Origin: Desulfobacter postgatei
GTDB lineage: Bacteria > Desulfobacterota > Desulfobacteria > Desulfobacterales > Desulfobacteraceae
Assembly: GCA_002747145.1 (NCBI GenBank)
Contig: PDTI01000040.1
Location: 1-49,117, forward strand
Reading direction: 5' to 3'
Length of the DNA: 49,117 nucleotides
Position numbers and translations under genes: made by a program. Under the pieces are notes generated by a model that saw nothing but the letters and a program-made list of their open reading frames with translations, did not search any database and was not told the DNA's origin. This document shows, one piece after another, positions 8,443-47,467 of this stretch. Within the stretch, counting starts at the first letter, position 1. Each line of letters opens with the position of its first letter.

Positions 8443-8622
8443 AAACAAAAAATGTCCTCCATATATAGACGTTGAAGGTTTTGCCCTGACTTACGACCCA
8501 CGAGTTCCATGCCAAATCTACATGCGATTGCCCTGTATCGGGTAATTTTTACCGTTGACATCCGTGGATATTTAGAATAAGTAAAAATCCTTAATGTTGC
8601 GGCTGGAGCCGTATAGCGTTTA

Positions 8623-8786
8623 AGAGCGTGTTTGGTAATTGATGAATCGGCTGCAATCCCATGAAAATGGCTCCAATTTCCCCAAATTTTATGTCAATAG
8701 TCCGGCTATTCACAGAAAATTTGTGAAAAGTTGGTTCTCATTTTCATGGAATTTCGCCTCGATTCCCTAATTATCAAACACGCTCT
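8623..8786. repeat. MITE-like family 1, full-length copy (164 bp)
   Basis: Terminal inverted repeats AGAGCGTGTTTGGTAATT (8623-8640) and AATTATCAAACACGCTCT (8769-8786), one mismatch; internal near-palindrome CCATGAAAATGGCTCCAATTT...GTTGGTTCTCATTTTCATGG. Confidence 0.85.
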
Positions 8787-8806
8787 AAAAAGAGTTAAAT
8801 TTATTA

Positions 8807-29567: not shown

Positions 29568-30782
29568 ATGCCAATTGCAGATAAGATGATCGGAATCGTA
29601 GAATCCGCATCCATGATCCGAAAAATGTTTGAGGAAGGCATCCGGATGAGAGAACAGTTCGGAGCTGAAAATGTATTTGATTTTTCCTTGGGAAATCCCG
29701 ATGTTCCGCCGCCGTCCGTGGTAAAGGAAACGGTACTGGATTTAATCAACGATCCAGAGAACAGCCACGGATATATGCCCAATGCAGGATATCCCTGGGT
29801 ACGCCAGGCCGTAGCCGATTACCTGAACACCCAGTACGGTGCTGGAATAACTGCAGACCTGGTGGTCATGAGTGTGGGGGCGGCCGGTGCTTTGAATGGC
29901 ACCTTAAAAGCCCTGGTCAATCCCGGCGAAGAAATTCTGGTGCCGGCCCCCTATTTTGTGGGGTACAATCAATACGCCTTTATTGCCGGAGCAGACCTGA
30001 AAACCGTCTCCACCAAGCCCGATTTTCACCTGGATCTTGACGCCATTGAAGCAGCTATTAATAAAGAAACCCGCGTCATGCTCATCAATTCCCCCAACAA
30101 CCCCACGGGCGTGGTTTACACCAGACAGGAACTGGATGAATTGGGTCAGCTGATAGAAAAGAAAAGCAAGGCGTTTGGTAAACGCATCTATCTGATTTCG
30201 GACGAACCCTATCGCAAAATTGCCTATGATGTGGATGTGCCCTGGATGTTTGGCGTATATGAGCACACCATTGTCCTGACCTCCTATTCCAAGGAGCTCT
30301 CCTTGGCCGGGGAACGTGTGGGATATATTGCGGTTCACCCAAAAGCTGAAGATGCGGAATTGATTGCATCAGCAGCCGGTGTGGCCAATACCATGCTGTT
30401 CGTGAATGCTCCGGCCCTGTTCCAGCAGGTGGTGGGAAAGCTGCAGGGCGTGAGTGTGGATATTGGCATCTATCGCAAACGCAGGAACATGCTCTGTGAG
30501 GGGCTTGCCGCGGCGGGCTATGAGTTCAACATCCCCGAAGGCGCGTTTTATCTGTTCCCCAAAACCCCCATTGAAAATGATGTGGAATTTGTGGATCTGC
30601 TTAAAAAAGAGAATATCCTGGTCGTACCCGGCTCCGGATTTGGCGGTCCCGGCCATATTCGGCTCTCCTATGCCGTACCTGAACAGACCATAGAAAACTC
30701 CATGGCGGGATTCAAACGGGCCATGAAAGCCGCTCAAAGCGGTTATTTAATTGACCACCTAAAAGGTGGCATGCCTATTTGA
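29568..30782 (+). CDS. PLP-dependent aminotransferase class I/II (track start 29478; ATG 29568 preferred)
   Basis: FSLGNPDVPPP, NSPNNPTGVVYT, SYSKELSLAGERVGY. Confidence 0.92.
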   Translation: MPIADKMIGIVESASMIRKMFEEGIRMREQFGAENVFDFSLGNPDVPPPSVVKETVLDLINDPENSHGYMPNAGYPWVRQAVADYLNTQYGAGITADLVVMSVGAAGALNGTLKALVNPGEEILVPAPYFVGYNQYAFIAGADLKTVSTKPDFHLDLDAIEAAINKETRVMLINSPNNPTGVVYTRQELDELGQLIEKKSKAFGKRIYLISDEPYRKIAYDVDVPWMFGVYEHTIVLTSYSKELSLAGERVGYIAVHPKAEDAELIASAAGVANTMLFVNAPALFQQVVGKLQGVSVDIGIYRKRRNMLCEGLAAAGYEFNIPEGAFYLFPKTPIENDVEFVDLLKKENILVVPGSGFGGPGHIRLSYAVPEQTIENSMAGFKRAMKAAQSGYLIDHLKGGMPI

Positions 30783-30800
30783 ACAAAATCAGTTGCTTTA

Positions 30801-30933
30801 AGAGCCTGTTTGATAATTGATGAATCGGCTGCAATCTCATGAAAATGGCTCCAATTCCCCCAAATTTTCTGTCAATAGTCCGGCTATTAACAGAAAATTT
30901 GTGAAAATTGGTTCTCATTTTCATGAGATTTCG
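30801..30933. repeat. Family 1 copy lacking its right terminal repeat
   Basis: AGAGCCTGTTTGATAATTGATGAATCGGCTGCAATCTCATGAAAATGGCTCC...GGTTCTCATTTTCATGAGATTTCG; then switches to response-regulator coding sequence. Confidence 0.8.
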
Positions 30934-32207
30934 TGAAGATAGCTTCTGGCAAACTCATCCAGGGCTTCTTTTTTGGCTTCTTTATAGTCGGATGTACCTT
31001 GTTTTGTCTCTTCCCGACACGGTTGCCTCTCCCCTTGAACCACCCGAATCAGGGGAAGATCAATGGTGTTCCCGTTGGAAAACACCACAAGCCGTCTCAC
31101 ATAATTGAGCAGCTCCCGGACGTTGCCCGGCCAGGACTGCCCGGCAAGATAGCCTAAGGCTGTCGGATCAATATCCATGGAATCAACATCCAGTTCCCGG
31201 CAGCTTTTCAGTATAAATTTTCGGACCAGGGCCGGAATATCCTCTTTTCTGTCCCGCAATGGCGGAACGGTTACGGAAAGGACATTGAGCCGGTAATACA
31301 GATCTTCCCGAAAAGTGCCGCTACGGATTTTTTCTTCCAGGTTCTGGTTGGTCAAGGCAATAATCCGGACATCCGCCTGCTTAGATACGCTGCTTCCCAC
31401 CGGCTTGACTTCCTTGTCCTGGAGAAACTTTAACAGTTTTGCCTGGATGGCAGGCGCGATGTCCCCGATTTCATCCAGGATCAAGGTGCCTTTGTCTGCA
31501 GACATAAAAAAGCCTGACCGGTCACGGTCCGCGCCGGTAAAGGCGCCCCTGACATGGCCAAAAAGTTCGCTTTCCAAAAGCCCTTTGGGTATGGTCGGGC
31601 AGTTCAGGGCATGGCAGGAACGGTTTTTCCGTTTGGAAAATGTATGGATATTCCTGGCAATAAACTCCTTTCCGCTGCCGGATTCGCCGGTGATCAGAAC
31701 CGTATAATCCGTAGCTGCAATGGTTTCCACTTGTTTCTGGAGTTGCTGCATGACAGGACTCTGGCCAAGGAGAATCCTTCCGGTTTTCAAATCTTTGATC
31801 ACTTTTATAAGGCGCTTATTTTCATTGGACAGCCCATAGTGTTCCACGGCCCTTTCCACAGTATGGTAAAGCGCCTGCCTTTCCACAGGTTTGGTCAGGA
31901 AATCCCAGGCCCCCAGCTTCAACGACTTGACCGCCGTTTCTACGGTCCCGTGGCCCGTGATCATGATCACGCAGATATTGGGATTGATTTTTTTAGTTTC
32001 CTGTAAAAGTTCCTGACCCGATATGCCGGGCATGCGTAAATCGGAAAGCATCACCCCCACATGCTGATCTGTCAACACGGTCAGAGCTTCTTTACCAGAC
32101 AGCACCCCTATAATCTGCCTGTCCGGGAATTTCTTTTTCAGGTTCCGGATCATTCCGTTTAAAAAATCCTTATTGTCATCAACCAGAAGGATGGAGAATT
32201 CATTCAT
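30921..32207 (-). CDS. NtrC-family sigma54 response regulator (REC-AAA+), apparently lacking its C-terminal Fis-type HTH
   Basis: ILLVDDNKDFLNG, GESGSGKEFIARNIH, ELFGHVRGAFTGADRDRSGFF; ends EEFARSYLHEIS-like (KKEALDEFARSYLHEIS*) inside the repeat. Confidence 0.9.
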   Translation of the reverse strand: MNEFSILLVDDNKDFLNGMIRNLKKKFPDRQIIGVLSGKEALTVLTDQHVGVMLSDLRMPGISGQELLQETKKINPNICVIMITGHGTVETAVKSLKLGAWDFLTKPVERQALYHTVERAVEHYGLSNENKRLIKVIKDLKTGRILLGQSPVMQQLQKQVETIAATDYTVLITGESGSGKEFIARNIHTFSKRKNRSCHALNCPTIPKGLLESELFGHVRGAFTGADRDRSGFFMSADKGTLILDEIGDIAPAIQAKLLKFLQDKEVKPVGSSVSKQADVRIIALTNQNLEEKIRSGTFREDLYYRLNVLSVTVPPLRDRKEDIPALVRKFILKSCRELDVDSMDIDPTALGYLAGQSWPGNVRELLNYVRRLVVFSNGNTIDLPLIRVVQGERQPCREETKQGTSDYKEAKKEALDEFARSYLHEIS

Positions 32208-34635
32208 GCCTCATTCCTTGATTGGTAAACCCGCTTTCAATGGGGAAATAAACTTCAAAACAGGTCTCTGCGTGGTTTTTGACCTCAATACGTCCCCCTA
32301 TTTCCGAAATAAAGCCGTAGATAACGGCAAGGCCAAGGCCTGTTCCCTTACCTGGCATTTTGGTCGTAAAGAAAGGATCAAAAATGCTGTTGATTACCGA
32401 ATCGGGGATGCCCGGTCCGTTGTCCTGGATGGATAATAAAACCTCGTCTCCATTTTTTTCAAGGCCCGTGGATATCTTCACCTGGCCGCCGGTTTCCTGA
32501 AGGGCGTCAAAGGCGTTGATCCACAGGTTTGTCAGGATCTGTTCCAGGATTCCGGCATCGCATTTGACCTGGGGAAGCCCCTCTGCCAGCTCTGTGCGGA
32601 CCCGGATCCCCTTTGACGCAGCCTGGGTTTGGAACACCTTTACCAGGTCCCGGACCGTTTCATTGATCCGGCATATCCCTGATACGGGCTGTTTGGGCCT
32701 GGACAGCTTCAGGAGTTCCTTGACAATATGCTTCACATTCTGGGTATGCTTTTCAATCACGGCAATGTCCTCCAGCACGTCCGGATCAGAAACCGCGTCT
32801 TTTATAAGGTCTGTGTAACAGCTGATCACGCCCAGGGGGTTGTTGATTTCGTGGGCCACGCCTGCTGCCATCTTACCTACGGCGCTCAACCGCTCAGCCT
32901 GCTGCATCCGGGACATGATCTGTTTTTCAAGTGTGATTTCCCTTGCATACAGAACGATTTTCAACCCTGCCTGCTCTCGTCGCGTCGGCAGCGGATAAAG
33001 AAATACCCTGAAGGATTGATCCCGGCCGATCCCGATCTCCCGGCTGACTGGTTTCCGGGTTTCCAGCATCTTTTCCCAAACCCCAGCTCCGGAAGATTGC
33101 TGCTTTTTTAAGAATTTTTTGAGTTCCCTTTCCCGGCCTTTTTTGTCCGGGCTTTTAAAAATTTTCCTGCTGCCCTCGTTGGCCATGAGGATGCGGCACT
33201 CTGCGTCGATCAAAAAGAGCGGATCGGAAATTCCCTCAAAAACCGATTGGAGCATATCATTCTGGTACCTTACATTGGAAAAGGCCTGAACATTTTCAAT
33301 CATCGTGGCCAGCTGGCGGCCCAGGGCATGGAGTACCGAATAATCGGTATCCTTGCCGATGCCCGATGCCCATGTAATGCTAAGAATTCCCCAATGGCTT
33401 TCATCGGATTTTACGGGGATGTAAACCGTATTGTCCTTGCAGAACGCATGATCCTTCCATGACACCTCTTTGATATCATCCCTGAGGGGTTCAATGGGAT
33501 CTTTATCCTTCCAGGCATAGGCGTTATCCGATGCCACAGTACAATAGTATATGACCTGGTCTGCATCAAACCTTGTCCCAATGCATTCCAGGGCGCCCCG
33601 TATGATCTGTCCCGATGTGGCACCGCTTCCGAAACGGGATAGAATCTTTACAAACAGCCTGACATCGGCCCTGTGTTTTTCCATCCTGTCATGAATCTCC
33701 TTTGTTCTTTTATCCACCATGATCTCAAGATTCTGTGCATAGGCCTCCAGCTCATCCCTTGCATTGGAAAGACACAGGGCCAGTTCATCCACGCTTTCCA
33801 CCAATCCCTCAATCTCATCTTTTTCCCCCAGTTTCCGGATAATGCCCTGTTCCTGCTCCCCGGAAAACCGGATTTTAAAAATAGTGGTCAGGTGATGCAG
33901 ATTTTTCATGACCAGGCAGTCAAAAAACAGACTGATCAGACATGTAAATATAAGGATGCCGAAAAGATAATACATCAGATATTGCAGGGTAACTTCCTTT
34001 GCCGGATTCTTGATCAGGTTCACAGGAAATCCGGCCACCACAACCCCTCCGACCTCCCCTGGGGAATAGTAAAATCCGTTCTTATCCCCGTATATTTTTT
34101 TTAGCTCTTCCGGGGCCTGTTCCGGGTCTCCGTGGCAGTGCATACAGGATGTCTTGAAAACAACGGGCCGGGCGACAATATGGTATTCCGTGTTTCCCAC
34201 CATGGCATCATCCTCCCATATGGACAGCGCCCTGTTCCGGTTGAACATGCGGATCAGGCCCGCTTCCAGATCATCCGGGGCGGACAAGGGATTTCTGGGC
34301 CGAATGGATACCCGGCTGTAATGGTAGCTCTGGTTCTTTTCAACGTTGAGCCGGTTCATCACTTCCCTTGAAATATAAGAGGATGACATGGCTTTTAAAA
34401 TAAACCGTCCTTCCGGAAGGACGTTGAACATCTCGGGCCGTAAAACCATTTTCACATAATCCTGAACCGCATTGGACTGGGCAAGAACCATCCTTGACCG
34501 CTGGCTGATTTCGGATTTCATAATGGAGTTGAAATGAAAGTAAAGAATAATACTGGTGCAGATTCCCAAAGCCAGGGTAAAAAAAACCAGGCCAAAAATA
34601 AATTTCAGCCTTAAACTTAACCCACTTGAAAACAT
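32200..34635 (-). CDS. Membrane histidine kinase with DUF3365 (Tll0287-like) haem-type sensor domain
   Basis: [15 protein letters not shown] (CxxCH; 34132-34146), PAS-like region, [26 protein letters not shown]...[13 protein letters not shown]. Confidence 0.9.
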
Positions 34636-34705
34636 TAAATTTTCTCCCGCTTTTTAATTGGGCTCAAAATAAAGGGTCCTCCCCAAAAAAGCAAGACCGG
34701 TAACG

Positions 34706-34731
34706 GCATGTGTAGCCTTTAAGACACATGC
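34706..34731. promoter_or_regulatory. Inverted repeat, candidate upstream activator site
   Basis: GCATGTGT-N10-ACACATGC about 100 bp upstream of the sigma54 promoter. Confidence 0.45.
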
Positions 34732-34812
34732 ATGCCAACCCAAGTTAGCGTTAAAAAACAATAAGATATCAAAAATATTTTTATTTTCAATGTGTTATAA
34801 AATAAATTGTAA

Positions 34813-34828
34813 TGGCATGTGTTTTGCT
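34813..34828 (+). promoter_or_regulatory. Sigma54 (-24/-12) promoter
   Basis: TGGCATG-TGTT-TTGCT; GG 34814-34815, GC 34826-34827. Confidence 0.8.
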
Positions 34829-34870
34829 AATTCTGTCGTGTATTTTTTAACAAAAACAGAGAGGTAGATT

Positions 34871-36628
34871 ATGACAGATTCAAGTTCAATTGTTGTCGAC
34901 CAAGCCAGGTGGGAATGGTCGGAAATGTGGAAAAAAGAAGACTGGTGGGCCATCTGGATCGGATTTTTCCTATTGATCGCAGCCATGTTCATCTATTTTC
35001 CCCACAGCGGGGAGATGGAGAATATTATCACCAAGGCACAGTCTGAATACGGACAGGCTGCAGCCAGGACAAATGCCATTAAAACCATAGCCTGGTATAA
35101 GCTTTCCGATGCCAAGAAAAAGGCGGAAGCAAGAAAAATTCCAGCTGGCAAATGGCTGGCGGATTTCACCCACAAAACCCACAGCTGGACCGACAATCCC
35201 CTGGACGCTTTTTTTATGGGCGAAGAAAAGGCAGCCCGGAAAAAAGAGGTTGCTGTGGCCAAATATGAAACCAAAAAGGCAGCCCAGGATGAGACTTACG
35301 CGGCTGCCGTGGAAGCCGAAGAACTGGCCGAAGCTAAGGGATTCAAGGATGAAATACTGAACGCTTCAGCCTCAGCCGCCATCAGCAAGTGGAGAGATGC
35401 AAAACTGCTTGCAGATAAGGCCAAAAAGAAAACAAAGGTAAAACCCTATAATCAGATCCCAAACCTGATCGGCCTTGGCATATTTTTCTGCATTCTTTTC
35501 GGACTCCCCATGAAAATCATGGGCACATCGTTCAGAAAGTTTGCCCTGGGGTTTGTTTTAGTATACGGGATCACGCTGCTGGCATGGTTCTTCAGCTACC
35601 AGACCACCATGAAGCATTACGGGATCGGATATGCGGCCTGGGCGATTTTTCTGGGTATGCTGATCAGCAACACCGTTGGAACCCCCAAGTGGGCGGAAGC
35701 GGCCATCCAGACGGAATACTATATTAAAACCGGCCTGGTTCTTCTTGGGGCCAAAATTCTTTTTGAGAAAATCATTACCATCGGCACCGCCGGTATCTTT
35801 GTGGCCTGGGTGGTAACGCCCACGGTTTGGCTGATTACTTACTGGTTTGGACAGAAACTGATCCGGATGCCATCCAAACGGCTCAATGCGGTCATCTGTT
35901 CCGACATGTCCGTATGCGGGGTATCGGCAGCCATTGCAGCCGCATCAGCCTGCCGGGCCAAGAAAGAGGAGTTGACCCTGGCCGTAGGGCTGTCCCTGGT
36001 TTTCACCGCCATAATGATGATTGCCATGCCTGCGGTCATTAAAGCGGCCTTTCCTGTTGACAAGCAGATGATTCTGGGCGGTGCCTGGATGGGTGGAACC
36101 ATTGACGCCTCTGGGGCTGTTGCCGCAGCCGGTGCCTTTTTAGGAGAAAAAGCCCTTTATGTGGCCGCCACCATTAAAATGATCCAGAACGTACTCATCG
36201 GTGTCATCGCTTTCTTTGTGGCCCTTTACTTCACCACCCGGGTGGAAGTAATGGAAACAGGCGCAAAGGTGGGACTCAACGAAATCTGGTTCCGGTTTCC
36301 TAAATTCGTCATTGGGTTCATCGTCGCATCGGTTACCTTTTCCCTGATCTACTCCGGGTTCAACGACAGCCTGGACGGACTGGGACATGCCATGATCGAC
36401 AAGGGAACCATCAAGGGCGGATCAGACCTTTTCAGGAAATGGTTTTTTACCCTTTCCTTTGTCAGTATCGGACTTGCCACCAACTTCCGTGAACTAAAAG
36501 AACATTTCAAGGGCGGAAAACCCCTGATTCTGTATGTTTTTGGCCAGTCCCTGAACCTGGTTTTGACCCTGCTCATGGCATATATTATGTTTTACATGGT
36601 TTTCCCTGAACTTACGGCAACCATTTAG
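34871..36628 (+). CDS. YeiH-family putative sulfate exporter with long N-terminal extension
   Basis: WAIFLGMLISNTVGTPKW, NAVICSDMSVCGVSAAIAAASACRAKKEEL, LGGAWMGGTIDASGAVAAAGAF. Confidence 0.85.
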   Translation: MTDSSSIVVDQARWEWSEMWKKEDWWAIWIGFFLLIAAMFIYFPHSGEMENIITKAQSEYGQAAARTNAIKTIAWYKLSDAKKKAEARKIPAGKWLADFTHKTHSWTDNPLDAFFMGEEKAARKKEVAVAKYETKKAAQDETYAAAVEAEELAEAKGFKDEILNASASAAISKWRDAKLLADKAKKKTKVKPYNQIPNLIGLGIFFCILFGLPMKIMGTSFRKFALGFVLVYGITLLAWFFSYQTTMKHYGIGYAAWAIFLGMLISNTVGTPKWAEAAIQTEYYIKTGLVLLGAKILFEKIITIGTAGIFVAWVVTPTVWLITYWFGQKLIRMPSKRLNAVICSDMSVCGVSAAIAAASACRAKKEELTLAVGLSLVFTAIMMIAMPAVIKAAFPVDKQMILGGAWMGGTIDASGAVAAAGAFLGEKALYVAATIKMIQNVLIGVIAFFVALYFTTRVEVMETGAKVGLNEIWFRFPKFVIGFIVASVTFSLIYSGFNDSLDGLGHAMIDKGTIKGGSDLFRKWFFTLSFVSIGLATNFRELKEHFKGGKPLILYVFGQSLNLVLTLLMAYIMFYMVFPELTATI

Positions 36629-41084: not shown

Positions 41085-41121
41085 AGAGCGTGTTTGATAA
41101 TTGATGAATCGGCTGCAATCT
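41085..41121 (+). repeat. Family 1 left-end fragment
   Basis: AGAGCGTGTTTGATAATTGATGAATCGGCTGCAATCT. Confidence 0.85.
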
Positions 41122-41160
41122 CCAGCGATCTGGGGCAGATTTAATTGTAACCATGGGTCT
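41122..41160 (-). repeat. Family 2 left-end fragment, reverse orientation, overlapping the 3' end of the hybrid kinase
   Basis: Reverse complement AGACCCATGGTTACAATTAAATCTGCCCCAGATCGCTGG resembles AGGCCCATGATCAGAATTAAATCTGCCACAGATACGCCGG. Confidence 0.6.
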
Positions 41161-43132
41161 TGTCTTGGCCTCTCACAACCCATTTTCGCAAAGTATCAAA
41201 TAAAAACTGCGGTTCAATGGGCTTGGGAATATGCGCCACCATGCCGGCTCTCATGCACCGTTCTTTATCTTCAGCCGTTGCATTGGCTGTCATGGCAATA
41301 ATGGGAGGATGATTGCAGTCCGAAGATTCAAGAATGGCTGCCGTCGCTTCAAACCCATCCATTTCAGGCATTTGAATGTCCATTAGAATACAGTTGAAAT
41401 CATTTTTATGATTGATGGCCACCGCATCCCTGCCGTTATCAGCGATGGTCACTTCAATACCGGCCTTGATTAAAAATTGTTCTGCCACTTTCTGATTAAT
41501 GGCATTATCTTCCACCAATAAGATTTTTGCGCCTGTTAATCCCTGCAACGGTTCAATGGTCCATTGCCCGTCCCTGCACCGGTGTTTTCCAAGATTGCTG
41601 TCACCCGCAAAAGCGGATCTAACAGTATCCAGAAGCGTTGAGGGTGTGAACGGCTTTTCAAGAAAACCGTCAATATTCAGTTCATTTGCTGTCCGAATAA
41701 TTTTCTCTTTTTCATAAATCGGCGTCATGAGAATTGTGGGCAGTTTTGGGATGCCGGCCAATGCGTGAATCTGTTTTATGGTTTCGATGCCATCCATTCC
41801 CGGCATGTTGGAATCAATTAAAATAAGATGAAAAAAATTTTCTGTGGATTCTTCCCCCAGAACTTTAATGGCAAGCTCTCCGGATTTAACGCAGACCGGC
41901 CTGAATGAAAATGAGCTTAAGGCCTCAAAAAGCATTTGCCGTGTACTGCAAACATCCTCCACAACAAGGATTTTTAGATTTGAAGGGTTGGCCGGCAGAC
42001 ACCCTTGGACGTATGATTGATCCGGTTTAAGCACCACAAAAAAACTAAACAGGCTGCCTTGCCCGGGTGTGCTCCGGCATGTAATCTTACCACCCATCAA
42101 TTTGATCAGATTTTTTGAAATTGCCAGACCAAGACCACTGCCCCCATACTTCCGCGTGGTAGAACTGTCCGTTTGAATGAAGGCATCAAAAACAGTGGGC
42201 AGTTGCTCAGGGGGGATACCGATACCGGTATCCTTGATGCTTATCTTCAACTCAATGGACTGATCGGTTTTATTTTGAGTGCCAATGGTTACGACCACCT
42301 CACCTCTTTGGGTGAATTTGACGGCATTGGAGGTCAGGTTGAGCAGAACCTGCACCAATCGCAGCGGATCACCAATCAAGTTCACCGGTGTGTCGGCAGC
42401 GATGTCAAACAGAAGTTCCAATCCTTTTTCATGGGCCTTCATTGCAATCATGTTGCTCAAATTTGCCAGCACATCATCCAGGCAAAAGGGAAGCGACTCC
42501 AGTTCTATTTTGCCGGCTTCAATTTTAGAAAAATCCAATATGTCATTAATGATATTCAATAACAAATGGGAGGAGTCATAAATTTTTTCTATGTAATCAC
42601 GCTGTTCATCGTTCAGCTGTGTGTCCAGACACAGGTGGGACAATCCAATAACGGCATTGATAGGCGTACGGATTTCATGGCTCATATTGGCCAGAAAACG
42701 GCTTTTCATGGTATTGGCTATCTCCGAATTTTTTGCTGCTTTCTTCAGTTTTTCTTCTCTTAATTCAATCTGGCGAATCATCCAGTTCATGTTGCGCATT
42801 AAAAGCCGTATTTCATTTTCACTTTCCGGTTCATTGGGTTCGTTTGGAAGTGGAAAATAATTATAATCCCCTTTCCTGATTAATTGGCAGATGCCCAATA
42901 TTTGATTCAATTGTCCTAAAAACAACCATCTGAATCCAATGATATATGGACTGAAAATTGGCAGCAGGATGGCCAGTGTAATGCACAGCACCATGGCACT
43001 CTGGAATGCCTCAGCATAAAAAATATCTGTGTCGCCGACAAACCACATCATGACGATGATGGGAAGGAAAGTATAAAGTGTCAGGATAAATCGCAGTTTG
43101 GTTTTAACTTTAAACATCAATAATGCTCTCAT
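41141..43132 (-). CDS. Membrane hybrid histidine kinase (HisKA-HATPase-REC-REC)
   Basis: FLANMSHEIRTPINAVIGLSHL, KYGGSGLGLAISKNLIKLMGG, two receiver domains (LILIDSNMPGMDG; CILMDIQMPEMDG). Confidence 0.92.
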   Translation of the reverse strand: MRALLMFKVKTKLRFILTLYTFLPIIVMMWFVGDTDIFYAEAFQSAMVLCITLAILLPIFSPYIIGFRWLFLGQLNQILGICQLIRKGDYNYFPLPNEPNEPESENEIRLLMRNMNWMIRQIELREEKLKKAAKNSEIANTMKSRFLANMSHEIRTPINAVIGLSHLCLDTQLNDEQRDYIEKIYDSSHLLLNIINDILDFSKIEAGKIELESLPFCLDDVLANLSNMIAMKAHEKGLELLFDIAADTPVNLIGDPLRLVQVLLNLTSNAVKFTQRGEVVVTIGTQNKTDQSIELKISIKDTGIGIPPEQLPTVFDAFIQTDSSTTRKYGGSGLGLAISKNLIKLMGGKITCRSTPGQGSLFSFFVVLKPDQSYVQGCLPANPSNLKILVVEDVCSTRQMLFEALSSFSFRPVCVKSGELAIKVLGEESTENFFHLILIDSNMPGMDGIETIKQIHALAGIPKLPTILMTPIYEKEKIIRTANELNIDGFLEKPFTPSTLLDTVRSAFAGDSNLGKHRCRDGQWTIEPLQGLTGAKILLVEDNAINQKVAEQFLIKAGIEVTIADNGRDAVAINHKNDFNCILMDIQMPEMDGFEATAAILESSDCNHPPIIAMTANATAEDKERCMRAGMVAHIPKPIEPQFLFDTLRKWVVRGQDKTHGYN

Positions 43133-47409: not shown

Positions 47410-47467
47410 AGAGCGTGTTTGATAATTGATGAATCGGCTGCAATCCCCTAATTACCAAACAAGCTCT
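47410..47467. repeat. Family 1 internally deleted copy (58 bp)
   Basis: AGAGCGTGTTTGATAATTGATGAATCGGCTGCAATCCCCTAATTACCAAACAAGCTCT, both ends retained. Confidence 0.85.

Follow-up and report, generated by a model that had tools for sequence, protein, structure and literature searches.

The sigma54 activator gene at 30921–32207 of the window (the whole stretch of 49,117 nucleotides analysed here) stops inside a copy of a short repeat, and this raises the questions of whether the gene lost its DNA-binding domain at that repeat, by what kind of event, and what the shortened product may still do for yeiH, its probable target. The genes of the locus are as follows:

29568–30782, plus strand: class I/II aminotransferase (Pfam), convergent with the activator gene and not its neighbour in any relative checked
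30921–32207, minus strand: response regulator, NtrC-type EBP, C-terminally truncated with the HTH missing (open reading frame, Pfam and 24 intact, HTH-bearing orthologs)
32200–34635, minus strand: partner sensor kinase, Tll0287-like/DUF3365, with PAS_4, HisKA and HATPase_c domains (Pfam), also found upstream of intact orthologs
34871–36628, plus strand: YeiH-type membrane protein (Cons_hypoth698; Pfam), the probable target gene, with a YeiH homologue nearby in most relatives that have the module

Domain content of the truncated activator

The open reading frame call gave a protein of 428 aa with the C-terminus KKEALDEFARSYLHEIS, whose final residues before the stop are SYLHEIS. Pfam analysis of this protein identified Response_reg, Sigma54_activat and AAA_lid_14, with no match to HTH_8 or any other DNA-binding domain. 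The receiver is recognized by PF00072 (E=1e-23) together with an aligned phospho-Asp motif, ML(S/T)DLxMP, and the sigma54 AAA+ domain by PF00158 (E=3e-65) with GESGSGKE, GAFTGA and ILDEIGDI all present, so that Walker A, GAFTGA, Walker B and the phospho-Asp are unbroken in the alignment. The C-terminal Fis-type HTH of the NtrC family is absent, as the protein stops at residue 428, after roughly 9 residues of the HTH_8 region. An AAA+ domain in a protein lacking a DNA-binding domain is the composition that defines type Ic EBPs. The first-pass annotation had described an activator without a Fis-type HTH, and the open reading frame, Pfam and ortholog alignment all agree with it; its further statement that no HTH remnant is left holds for the helix-turn-helix proper, but part of the first HTH_8 helix, some 9 residues, remains.

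HTH in the orthologs and its loss here

Searches with the activator protein covered 59 relatives first and 86 genomes of the family afterwards. Orthologs with a readable tail were found in 24 other genomes (54–75% identity, window excluded), not counting one in G008 that runs off its contig ahead of the tail region. All 24 adjoin the same Tll0287/DUF3365 kinase, and a YeiH gene is close by in most. Each intact ortholog extends beyond the cut site through a segment such as FKITRGNISETSRISGLERASIQKIVKRLGMDMSRYR and carries a C-terminal HTH of the form GNISETSRxSGLERASIQKI. HTH_8 was the top Pfam match in all five ortholog tails tested, yet only two scored above the curated cut-off and three fell below it, indicating a divergent Fis-type HTH.

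Two checks had been proposed in the first-pass annotation, namely an alignment with orthologs beside the DUF3365 kinase and a search for the HTH as a separate gene. None of the 24 orthologs, all of them HTH-bearing, ends at the cut residue, and when a tail of the type found in the closest ortholog (G026, 75% identity, which carries the HTH) was searched in the activator's own genome, the single match was the activator gene itself, with no detached HTH piece in this 57% complete assembly. Since the HTH occurs in all 24 intact orthologs and no detached copy was found in the assembly, these results support the conclusion that this lineage once had the HTH and lost it, at a breakpoint that falls within the repeat. 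A short form that is ancestral or clade-wide and has no tie to the repeat was rejected and is extremely improbable, as none of the 24 intact orthologs is short, G026 and several members of the same genus included.

The junction between the repeat and the gene

The repeat is a MITE, and the following features mark its contact with the activator gene:

30799–30801: TAA, left copy of the TNA-type 3-bp target duplication (flanks of complete copies)
30802–30933, plus strand: truncated MITE with left TIR and internal hairpin present and the right 29 bp, including the right TIR, missing (alignment with 30 complete copies)
30921–30935, minus strand: junction of part of an H codon, the E, I and S codons and the TGA stop, reading into the MITE, with the breakpoint at 30933/30934 (sequence and MITE alignment)

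According to the 30 complete copies in the same genome, the full MITE is a palindromic element of 161 bp with inverted ends and a flanking 3-bp TNA duplication. The copy at the activator retains 132 bp, of which 130 are identical to the consensus, and diverges abruptly after 30933, where the consensus continues as CTTCGATCCCCTAATTATCAAACAGGCTC while the window reads TGAAGATAGC, which is activator gene sequence. The E, I and S codons and the TGA stop are MITE sequence and the H codon spans 30933/30934; alignment to the consensus confirmed what had been read from the sequence before, both that the repeat supplies the last residues and stop and that its right TIR is missing here. The gap to the convergent aminotransferase stop, earlier given as 18 bp, is indeed very short but is corrected to 16 bp when measured to the TAA duplication and 19 bp when measured to the element. 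The stability of the inner hairpin of the MITE greatly exceeds that of shuffled sequence (z = -7.3), and the breakpoint is 3 nt away from the hairpin base, on its outer side.

The MITE family in this genome

Pattern counts found the right-arm core approximately 99 times and the left end approximately 127 times in this genome, in partial or complete copies, whereas reversed-pattern controls for core and left end gave 0 matches, showing that the repeat is not a product of chance. Its length of 161 bp, its copy number, its TIRs and the TNA duplications of complete copies identify the family as a MITE, with the activator copy lacking the right TIR. The GAGCcTGTTTG-type ends and the TNA target duplication recall MITEs of the IS5/IS1031 type, a presumed affinity that we take as a lead only. 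The 1.48 Mb assembly carries about 100 or more copies, and the family is also abundant in G001, G006, G009, G012, G017 and G018 of the same genus. Other copies within the window lie at 8620–8790, 41085–41123 and 47410–47466; one is complete, one is a left-end fragment and one is internally deleted.

Of the 30 copies that have a perfect right-arm core, one is the activator copy; breaks within 9 bp of its breakpoint occur in two of the others, and in a third the break is nearer to the element end. These few cases suggest that the right end of the MITE is a weak spot. The fragment joined to one right-broken copy reads like the C-terminus of what is presumably an IS66-type transposase. Additionally, contig C12 of this genome carries another EBP gene with an intact HTH and a complete MITE about 20 bp past its stop codon, which by analogy may represent how the activator locus looked before the deletion.

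Origin and reliability of the truncation

In the history we propose, the ancestor was a sigma54 activator of the usual REC-AAA+-HTH architecture that worked with the Tll0287-type kinase and probably activated yeiH, and its last 40–50 codons would have been lost in this lineage. The event, a deletion or a rearrangement, would have cut the gene inside the first helix of the HTH and fused it to the interior of an IS-derived palindromic MITE, from which the activator now takes three codons and its stop. The event was probably recent, because the remainder of the gene shows no decay. That an activator of this architecture was truncated by an event ending inside the MITE, recently and with impairment of specific activation, is in our view a likely account as a whole.

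The course of the event is less narrowly defined. The first-pass annotation had proposed a repeat-mediated deletion. Its claims of an HTH lost by this lineage and of a break within the repeat are supported; mediation by the repeat and a simple deletion are unproven. Synteny comparison showed that the downstream neighbour of the activator gene varies among relatives and in every relative checked is a gene other than the aminotransferase; the aminotransferase in turn has different genes downstream of it there. A rearrangement is for this reason as possible as a simple deletion. An adjacent deletion made by a transposase normally starts at an intact element end and keeps it; because the right TIR was lost, an ordinary event of this kind is unlikely, and hairpin-assisted deletion or illegitimate recombination would fit better. 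Our preferred route is breakage just outside the inner MITE hairpin, where both the order of events and the mechanism are inferred.

Alternatively, the gene could really be full length and its MITE junction an artefact of assembly or amplification. The source genome is a draft assembly of 65 contigs that is 57% complete, and it is fragile at the MITE, as several contigs begin within approximately 60 bp of a copy. However, the junction joins the MITE interior to unique gene sequence, which a misjoin in the repeat graph does not yield without junction reads; comparable loss of the right end is seen in other MITE copies, and no HTH-bearing fragment is left over in the assembly. A chimera is consequently very unlikely. 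The MITE–gene junction could exist only with junction reads and can be trusted fairly well, more so than the aminotransferase side, which a graph misjoin could create.

The yeiH promoter and its upstream site

Two candidate regulatory elements lie between the kinase and yeiH genes:

34733–34750: probable upstream activating site TGCCAACCCAAGTTAGCG, a palindrome in weakened form, located 62 bp above the -24 box (matches in relatives and score)
34813–34828, plus strand: sigma54 -24/-12 promoter TGGCATG-tgtt-TTGCT upstream of yeiH

A sigma54 promoter is kept upstream of yeiH at all 17 loci compared, among them the window, where it reads TGGCATGTGTTTTGCT, and RpoN is encoded in this genome. The palindrome TGNNAACTYRAGTTNNCA was found 51–76 bp above the yeiH promoter, mostly at 61–64 bp, in 15 of 16 relatives; it is low-scoring in G068 and absent in G035. 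We infer that this palindrome is the binding site of the activator. In the region 34640–34870, the conserved sigma54 promoter, the palindrome that in relatives usually stands 61–64 bp above it, and a looser second site-like sequence, seen about 22 bp further up in several of them, together make up a probable regulon signature of the kinase/EBP pair. A search by name for the kinase/YeiH module in the D. vulgaris sigma54 regulome paper gave no match.

The upstream site of the window scores 16.7 (leave-one-out) in comparison to 19.9–24.6 in 12 of 16 relatives. Among relatives with an intact HTH, however, the site is equally weak in two, weaker in one and missing in one; because of these four, the weakened site is only suggestive as a sign of decay after HTH loss, and upstream-site decay was set aside as proof of adaptation because it is not decisive.

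Selection and fate of the product

The truncated activator departs from the orthologs at 3 otherwise invariant columns, a number within the range of the other orthologs (0–4, except for the distant G055). Terminal branches against the sister G026 were 0.319/0.149 for the EBP and 0.306/0.158 for the kinase, and dN/dS against G026 was approximately 0.13 for the EBP, similar to the kinase. Relaxed selection specific to the EBP was therefore not seen in invariant columns, branch lengths or dN/dS, and the intact motifs together with kinase-like branch lengths and dN/dS indicate a truncation that is recent or tolerated.

Phosphorylation and ATPase formation would be expected to persist in the truncated product, while binding at the site upstream of yeiH would be gone. 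Specific activation has most likely been lost or strongly reduced; activity from solution is possible, at most as weak enhancer-independent activation. What is left is a REC-AAA+ protein of recent origin that would be either crippled as an activator or independent of an enhancer, in the manner of FlgR or CtcC. Sigma54 activators without an HTH form a recognized minor class (type Ic) to which CtcC, FlgR and FleT belong (PMC3162934), and CtcC, which has no DNA-binding domain, nevertheless hydrolyses ATP and has been used in reporter assays (PMC7482065).

The existence of such proteins makes it conceivable that the truncated protein is functional and selected, activating from solution while the unread yeiH site decays. 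This reading would be consistent with catalytic and receiver domains that are unbroken and evolve like the kinase, and with an intact yeiH sigma54 promoter beneath an upstream site that scores below most orthologs. We consider it unlikely nonetheless, as the site is just as weak, weaker or absent in the four intact-HTH relatives noted above, a recent null would be expected to show equally little decay, and cross-talk would be expected of an unspecific activator in a genome with about a dozen other EBP genes in its 57% complete assembly. That a MITE-edged deletion recently made a working enhancer-independent activator with a decaying yeiH enhancer, as an early stage toward FlgR/CtcC-like activators, is a still more doubtful proposition.

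Comparison with known systems

Helicobacter FlgR, Chlamydia CtcC, Rhodobacter FleT and the truncated activator are all AAA+ sigma54 activators without a DNA-binding domain, and FlgR, CtcC and the truncated activator alike have a regulatory domain. In FlgR, CtcC and FleT the absence of the HTH is a stable trait and their action has been demonstrated, whereas the present case is known from sequence and is private to one genome. Unlike type Ic EBPs, the truncated activator was cut in mid-helix by a repeat, in a genome rich in HTH-bearing EBPs.

Protein C-termini altered by MITEs have been described for Coxiella enhC (PMC5896051) and for enterobacterial RU-1 (PMC2759123). In both Coxiella QMITE2/enhC and RU-1 in the amidase ECA3499, the repeat contributes codons to the C-terminus, is associated with an indel that alters the stop, or both, as here. 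QMITE2 and RU-1, however, mostly lengthen proteins past a conserved domain, whereas this locus has lost an entire functional domain, and its repeat is cut off at the junction as well. The repeat-edged loss of the HTH is a new instance, on a small scale, of known processes (repeat-associated truncation and HTH-less EBPs) and not a new kind. If real in a living population, it would be domain loss caught early, with the intact form in 24 relatives and the former site and promoter identifiable, and the origin of HTH-less sigma54 activators would become a testable question; otherwise, it is one more gene harmed by a very abundant repeat.

Additional observations

The kinase/EBP/YeiH module (30921–36628) groups with G026 of another genus and not with copies from the same genus (EBP 62–65% identity), in contrast to leuB and the aminotransferase, which are 87–95% identical to several genomes of the same genus. 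Judging from these identities, horizontal transfer or differential loss of the module is possible. In the genome of the truncated activator, another sigma54 activator (contig C18:855–2003) has its HTH in another frame near an A-run, reflecting a frameshift or a sequencing error. A second gene end in the window touches repeats: the hybrid histidine kinase gene at 41144–43132 (minus strand) ends in RGQDKTHGYN, and its last codons and stop lie in or next to a repeat of a second family (41085–41200), within which a piece of the MITE described above is found.
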